DNA of 64,000 nucleotides. Origin: Sphingomonas sp. Leaf17 (lineage in GTDB: Bacteria > Pseudomonadota > Alphaproteobacteria > Sphingomonadales > Sphingomonadaceae). The position numbers and the translations under genes were made by a program. The notes beneath the pieces were generated by a model that saw nothing but the letters and a program-made list of their open reading frames with translations, made no database searches and was not told the DNA's origin. The stretch is from contig NZ_LMKL01000004.1 in NCBI RefSeq assembly GCF_001421505.1, positions 1 to 64,000 of the forward strand, in the 5' to 3' direction. This document shows positions 32,966 to 34,882 of the stretch, piece after piece; positions within the stretch are counted from its first letter, which is position 1, and every line of letters starts with the position of its first letter.

Positions 32966-33562
32966 ATGCCCGATCTCGCGCACGAGGCGCTGCATGCCGG
33001 CCCGGTCGCCGGCGTGGACGAGGCGGGACGCGGGCCGCTGGCGGGGCCGGTGGTCGCGGCGGCGGTGATCCTGCCGGCATCGGGGTTTCCGGACGGGCTG
33101 AACGATTCCAAGCAGGTAAAACCGGCGGATCGCGAACGATTGTTCGGCCTGTTGATGCAATGCGCGGTGGTGGGGGTGGGCATCGTCGAGCCGGAGGAGA
33201 TCGACCGGCTGAATATTCTTCAGGCGACGATGAAGGCGATGACGCTGGCGGTCGACGCGCTTGGTACTGCGCCGGGCCATGTGCTGGTCGACGGCAACCG
33301 CCTGCCGCGCTGGCACTGGCCGGCGACGGCGATCGTCAAGGGCGACGCGAAGTCGCTGTCGATCGCCGCCGCCTCGATCGTCGCGAAACATACCCGCGAC
33401 CAGCTGATGCTGGCGGCGGCGCTGGACTATCCGCATTACGACTGGGCGTCGAACAAGGGCTATGGCAGCCCGCGCCATCTGGCCGCGTTGCGCGACCATG
33501 GCCCGACCCCGCTGCATCGCCGCAGCTTCGCGCCAGTGGCGCGGGCATATTTATCGTCCTGA
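32966..33562 (+). CDS. rnhB: ribonuclease HII
   Basis: This 198-residue enzyme removes RNA from RNA-DNA hybrids and ribonucleotides misinserted in DNA. The catalytic motif GVDEAGRGPLAGPVV carries D18 and E19. The further acidic residues lie in VLVDGNRLP and in AKHTRDQLM, and SNKGYGSPRHLAAL is also typical. The start ATG at 32966 lies 2 nt after the thiD stop, in the same operon. The first of eight GANTC sites preceding ccrM overlaps its stop codon. Confidence 0.95.
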   Translation: MPDLAHEALHAGPVAGVDEAGRGPLAGPVVAAAVILPASGFPDGLNDSKQVKPADRERLFGLLMQCAVVGVGIVEPEEIDRLNILQATMKAMTLAVDALGTAPGHVLVDGNRLPRWHWPATAIVKGDAKSLSIAAASIVAKHTRDQLMLAAALDYPHYDWASNKGYGSPRHLAALRDHGPTPLHRRSFAPVARAYLSS

Positions 33563-33707
33563 GTCTTTTCGGCCACACCCCCCATGGCTTGAGTCGGTGG
33601 ACCGCCCCGGACTCAAGATATGGGATATGCGACTCGGGACAGGAATCTCGAATCCAGCGTCGTTCGCCAGAGTCAAGATCGTCTGCTTGACGATACGGTT
33701 AAGAATC
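33561..33707. promoter_or_regulatory. cluster of eight GANTC methylation sites in the ccrM leader
   Basis: GANTC occurs at 33561, 33591, 33610, 33631, 33643, 33650, 33670 and 33703, all in 147 bp between rnhB and ccrM. Chance would give about one per 250-310 bp. The downstream gene encodes the enzyme expected to methylate these sites. In Caulobacter the ccrM promoter is also controlled by GANTC methylation, so an autoregulatory, cell-cycle-linked switch is likely. Confidence 0.75.
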
Positions 33708-33712
33708 GCTGA

Positions 33713-34882
<1,170 letters not shown>

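Follow-up and report, generated by a model that had tools for sequence, protein, structure and literature searches.

In the genome of Sphingomonas sp. Leaf17, the gene for the GANTC adenine methyltransferase CcrM is preceded by a dense array of the enzyme's own target sites. We analysed this array, to which an earlier note (hereafter the original prediction) had drawn attention, within a stretch of 64,000 nucleotides (contig NZ_LMKL01000004.1, positions 1 to 64,000; hereafter the window), and compared it with ccrM loci gathered from genomes of the genus and the class, 110 from Sphingomonadales and 80 from other alphaproteobacteria (mostly one per family). The array lies in the leader of ccrM, a gap of 180 bp between the stop codon of rnhB (33560-33562) and the ccrM start (33743). 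Its sites start at 33561, 33591, 33610, 33631, 33643, 33650, 33670 and 33703. Features of the locus are as follows, with offsets counted from the last TTGAC of the leader.

32966-33562, plus strand: rnhB (ribonuclease HII), the upstream gene; RNase_HII, E 1.6e-39
33561-33707, no strand: GANTC array of eight sites; the array arrangement is shared by 110 Sphingomonadales loci
33561-33565, no strand: GAGTC, site 1, overlapping the rnhB stop codon; offset -126
33589-33616, no strand: inverted repeat TTGAGTC-N14-GACTCAA with sites 2 (33591) and 3 (33610); offsets -96 and -77
33631-33635, no strand: GACTC, site 4; offset -56
33643-33654, no strand: GAATC, sites 5 and 6; offsets -44 and -37, in a stretch with site turnover between species
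33670-33674, no strand: GAGTC, site 7; offset -17
33687-33692, plus strand: putative -35 box TTGACG; among conserved strings in Sphingomonadales leaders, GCTTGACG is the strongest
33699-33713, no strand: TTAA-N7-TGAA, differing from a CtrA box at one position, site 8 lying in its spacer; not conserved there in relatives
33703-33707, no strand: GAATC, site 8, in the putative promoter spacer; offset +16, relatives having +6 to +10 and +19
33710-33715, plus strand: possible -10 box TGAACT, weak, at the 17-bp spacing of the class consensus
33743-34882, plus strand: ccrM, GANTC adenine methyltransferase with a C-terminal RAMA domain, by domain models and the match to 6pbd

The original prediction had placed eight GANTC sites within 33561-33707 in front of a GANTC methyltransferase gene, at a density more than tenfold above chance and confined to the rnhB-ccrM gap. 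All eight sites were located, and their span is exact. Judged by its methylase and RAMA domains and its closeness to the solved Caulobacter CcrM (6pbd, E 2.5e-158), the gene is a true CcrM; the NCBIfam CcrM model was matched end to end, but under its strict cut-off (616 versus 830 bits). The stated density proved an understatement relative to the genome's own level: GANTC is depleted about three-fold over the window (98 observed versus 285 in shuffles), and eight sites in 147 bp amount to about 35 times the local density. This depletion is consistent with GANTC methylation by CcrM in the host. Dinucleotide shuffles of the leader (n = 5000) gave a mean of 1.77 sites and a maximum of 7, never 8. 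Confinement to the gap was borne out as well. Outside the leader, no 147-bp segment of the window holds more than three sites. Genome-wide (3.2 Mb), four complementary pattern searches for GANTC triplets with gaps of up to 30 bp matched the leader many times and otherwise only some 15 places, scattered and holding three or four sites each, and found no comparable cluster elsewhere. Among the genome's few other GANTC clusters is a short tandem repeat, GATTCGCCATTG (G000:C11:25037-25077), with four sites in 41 bp. No Rfam family matched the leader at E values up to 1.

Across the class, rnhB adjoins ccrM in nearly all loci. Site 1 overlaps the rnhB stop codon (TGAGTC, 33560-33565), so that the array extends into the end of the neighbouring gene, and the same overlap was seen in 28 of 57 loci checked. 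In Sphingopyxis, Croceicoccus and Erythrobacter, many genomes carry approximately 1-2 kb of extra DNA between the two genes (e.g. L028, L031 and L048); in these loci the array keeps with ccrM, not with rnhB.

The original prediction had proposed relatives' leaders as a check, and the cluster is kept throughout Sphingomonadales and persists at a smaller size in the class at large. In the Sphingomonadales loci, GANTC reaches about 22-43 per kb in a 175-bp leader, while the surrounding sequence mostly stays under 5 per kb; of the 110 loci, 103 have their densest 150 bp in the leader and 7 show a tie. The other alphaproteobacterial loci average 3.7 sites in the 345 bp upstream of ccrM, against 0.58 predicted from the surrounding density, with at least one site in 72 of 80 and a maximum of eight. 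Dense leaders are not peculiar to the Leaf17 genome, since 5-8 sites occur in many other families. By these counts the cluster is class-wide, and is most pronounced in Sphingomonadales and a few further families. A separate, small GANTC peak about 750 bp upstream was set aside: in the window it corresponds to a conserved rnhB codon string, AACGATTCCAAG (site 33104), and so probably reflects coding conservation.

The enrichment in these leaders is peculiar to GANTC, being 19.6-fold in Sphingomonadales and 5.7-fold in the class. None of the 12 one-letter variants exceeds 1.36-fold, and the 15 other palindromes of the same form reach about 4-fold at most. Across the class, the middle base at +6 to +10 is near uniform (T12 C13 G9 A9), as is expected when the CcrM target itself is under selection. 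In the stretch from -55 to -1, where GANTC still stands at 16 per kb, the middle base is A40 C24 G18 T17. Enrichment of GANTC only, together with a free middle base, thus bears the signature of selection on the CcrM target itself.

The position of the sites was examined relative to a class consensus, TTGACg-N17-CAnnnT, in which a 17-bp spacer separates a -35 box from a -10 box that retains the two positions most strongly conserved in such boxes. We infer that this element is the ccrM promoter. GANTC recurs at +6 to +10 and at +19 in the Sphingomonadales and class sets alike, and both of these consensus sites sit within the spacer, one just past the -35 box and the other touching the -10 box. 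A generic sigma-70 scan gave no match at the leader. A strict module of the -35 box plus two GANTC, sought in 61 Sphingomonas genomes, was found in 6 places only and never at ccrM, because Sphingomonas leaders seldom keep the +19 site. Inputs from CtrA and DnaA to the leader are plausible, given that 60 of the 110 Sphingomonadales leaders contain GTTAAC and 32 a perfect DnaA box (versus 0.003 per kb elsewhere in the loci). In two genomes, the arms of the ccrM inverted repeat enclose a perfect DnaA box (G043:C163:13739-13766 and G085:C243:119-146).

The spacing between sites follows the turn of the helix. All-pair GANTC spacings in Sphingomonadales leaders peak at about 9-11, 19-20, 29-30, 38-41, 47-51 and 60 bp, with few values between. 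As shared ancestry could explain such spacings within one order, phasing was retested on 23 class leaders less than 60% alike, over periods from 6 to 16. The best period was 10.3 bp (z 4.95, p 0.001 over all periods), and the sites upstream of the -35 box only (18 leaders) gave 9.8 (z 5.4, p 0.001). Other palindromic pentamers in the same leaders had no period near 10. The Leaf17 window by itself gave p 0.015 for a period of 9.8-10.8 bp. A period of about 10 bp indicates that GANTC sites tend to share one face of the helix.

Cumulatively, we favour the reading, with a probability of about 0.6, that the gap between rnhB and ccrM serves as a conserved control region, responsive to methylation, by which CcrM turns off its own gene. 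The proposed control would run as follows: 1) passage of the replication fork would leave all sites of the array hemimethylated together, and the promoter would become able to fire; 2) the CcrM thus made would re-methylate the array, and transcription would end once several phased sites are fully methylated; and 3) the many phased sites would provide a sharp switch able to gauge CcrM activity. The phasing calls for cooperative reading, presumably by one or more proteins; the spacer sites would be read by RNA polymerase, possibly with GcrA, and the Sphingomonadales inverted repeat by a further regulator. The original prediction had suggested hemimethylation-dependent autoregulation or a platform for a methylation-sensitive protein. 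This suggestion appears partly supported. A lack of conservation in relatives, which would have told against it, was not observed, and the selected sequence is exactly the CcrM target; placement in the putative spacer and phasing fit both of its halves.

Several points weigh against self-shutdown by CcrM. The case for it is built on sequence, and the sign of the feedback is taken from the Caulobacter literature. In the Leaf17 leader, the usual +8 site is lost, the last site has moved to +16, and the -10 box is weak. Eight of the 80 class leaders have no GANTC site at all. Furthermore, in the 80 class genomes the cluster does not grow with GcrA, averaging 3.6 sites with it and 4.0 without (p 0.61).

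An ordinary sequence-specific regulator with the half-site TTGAGTC could instead repress or activate ccrM through the inverted repeat and nearby half-sites, methylation being incidental. In favour of such a regulator are features of the Sphingomonadales leaders. Their consensus reads TGAGTCtTt.g.GcCACACC...TtGAGTC-N15-GACTCAA.ATcTtGtg.cgGaCtCgtttcGTTC, which includes further conserved strings such as GcCACACC, and the upstream sites are fixed in their middle base (G in 57 of 59 at -99, C in 73 of 75 at -79) and in their flanks. Of 101 Sphingomonas genomes, 24 carry the inverted repeat TTGAGTC-N8-20-GACTCAA in exact form, and in 19 of these 24 it stands before ccrM. However, no middle base is fixed at +6 to +10 in the class or from -55 to -1, where GANTC is nevertheless dense, and elsewhere in the class the repeat is mostly missing (present in 5 of 79) while the cluster is retained. 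We therefore regard an ordinary regulator as the whole explanation as unlikely. The fixed middle base and flanks upstream make it probable that, in Sphingomonadales, a second reader acts besides CcrM. TTGAGTC-N13-GACTCAA (often TTGAGTCGCTGGCGC...) was also seen away from ccrM, in 1-3 copies, in five Sphingomonas genomes (G009, G037, G042, G067 and G086); these copies are possibly a separate repeat or element, or more targets of the same regulator.

A second alternative is a GcrA/sigma-70 promoter, at which GcrA on methylated spacer GANTC recruits RNA polymerase, CcrM activates its own gene and the upstream sites are spare. Methylated promoters do receive RNA polymerase through GcrA (PMC7403470), and those of this type, e.g. 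ctrA P1, resemble the ccrM leader in having GANTC beside or between the -35 and -10 boxes. GcrA is encoded in the Leaf17 genome, and GANTC occupies fixed places in the putative spacer among relatives; in Leaf17 itself there is GANTC in the -35/-10 region, only the +16 site lying in the putative spacer, the usual spacer site being displaced to that position. Promoters of this type have few sites, whereas the ccrM leader has a long array, and its size is the same with and without GcrA as detected by a six-frame Pfam search, which may miss divergent GcrA. This independence makes GcrA unlikely as the sole reader, and activation of ccrM through GcrA seems to us rather improbable. The family match of Leaf17 GcrA (L114 and L115; G000:C4:238052-238810) falls in two halves about 290 bp apart within one frame of 334 amino acids, and its linker looks unusually long.

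A third alternative is sequestration, in which a new protein would bind the phased hemimethylated GANTC cooperatively and, until late in the cycle, prevent both firing of the promoter and full methylation of the sites. No protein of this kind is known in Alphaproteobacteria, which counts against the proposal, and we know of no SeqA homologue there. In its favour are the helical phasing, a feature that E. coli SeqA requires of the hemimethylated GATC it reads on one helix face (PMC493266), and the number of sites, which is like the eight GATC of the E. coli dnaA promoter (PMC10073500). The SeqA-bound clusters at E. coli oriC and the dnaA promoter thus resemble the array in gathering many adenine-methylase sites in one regulatory region and on one helix face; they differ in methylase and motif, and in that the array belongs to the methylase gene itself. 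As an explanation of the array, sequestration seems to us very improbable. By analogy with SeqA, the broader conjecture that Alphaproteobacteria may own a sequestration device, a protein on phased hemimethylated GANTC that would not release the ccrM promoter before a late stage of the cell cycle, is doubtful, if less remote. Chance or base composition can practically be dismissed, being contradicted by the shuffles, the one-letter variants and the fixed offsets and refuted by the conservation.

Control of ccrM by its own methylation has a precedent. The original work on the ccrM promoter of Caulobacter crescentus is reportedly that of Stephens et al. in 1995. There, as in Leaf17, GANTC stands in the promoter of the GANTC methylase gene, and feedback by its own product is reported, ccrM being expressed from hemimethylated DNA (PMC2217572). 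The original prediction had credited the Caulobacter promoter with only a small number of sites, in agreement with the two mentioned in PMC10073500. Unlike that promoter, the Leaf17 leader has eight sites, helical phasing and the TTGAGTC/GACTCAA inverted repeat, and a perfect CtrA box, TTAA-N7-TTAA, is found in 0 of the 110 Sphingomonadales leaders. Because the Caulobacter control was described with two sites, the Leaf17-type array would be an elaborated, class-wide variant of the methylation-dependent control of ccrM. Among cell-cycle promoters, those that carry GANTC between -10 and -35 constitute a timed group (PMC4287350). Hypomethylated promoters occluded by MucR share with the array the presence of promoter GANTC in bacteria that have MucR, of which Leaf17 encodes two homologues; those promoters are generally not conserved between species (PMC5172544), whereas the ccrM array is.

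Brilli et al. counted GANTC in the 500-bp promoters of cell-cycle genes of the class and judged methylation control not derivable from them (PMC2877005), and Pannier-type GANTC counts exist for ctrA promoters (PMC8116508). We found no description of the ccrM array, its phasing or the inverted repeat in the open literature; subscription papers lay outside the search, and priority is accordingly uncertain. Anchoring on the -35 box and phasing reveal an order that the 500-bp promoter counts (PMC2877005) did not. A phased array of an enzyme's own targets at its own promoter is a mutable object for the study of methylation feedback, cooperativity and a possible SeqA-like reader, and the confinement of CcrM to one short burst per cycle bears on cell-cycle timing across a large bacterial class.
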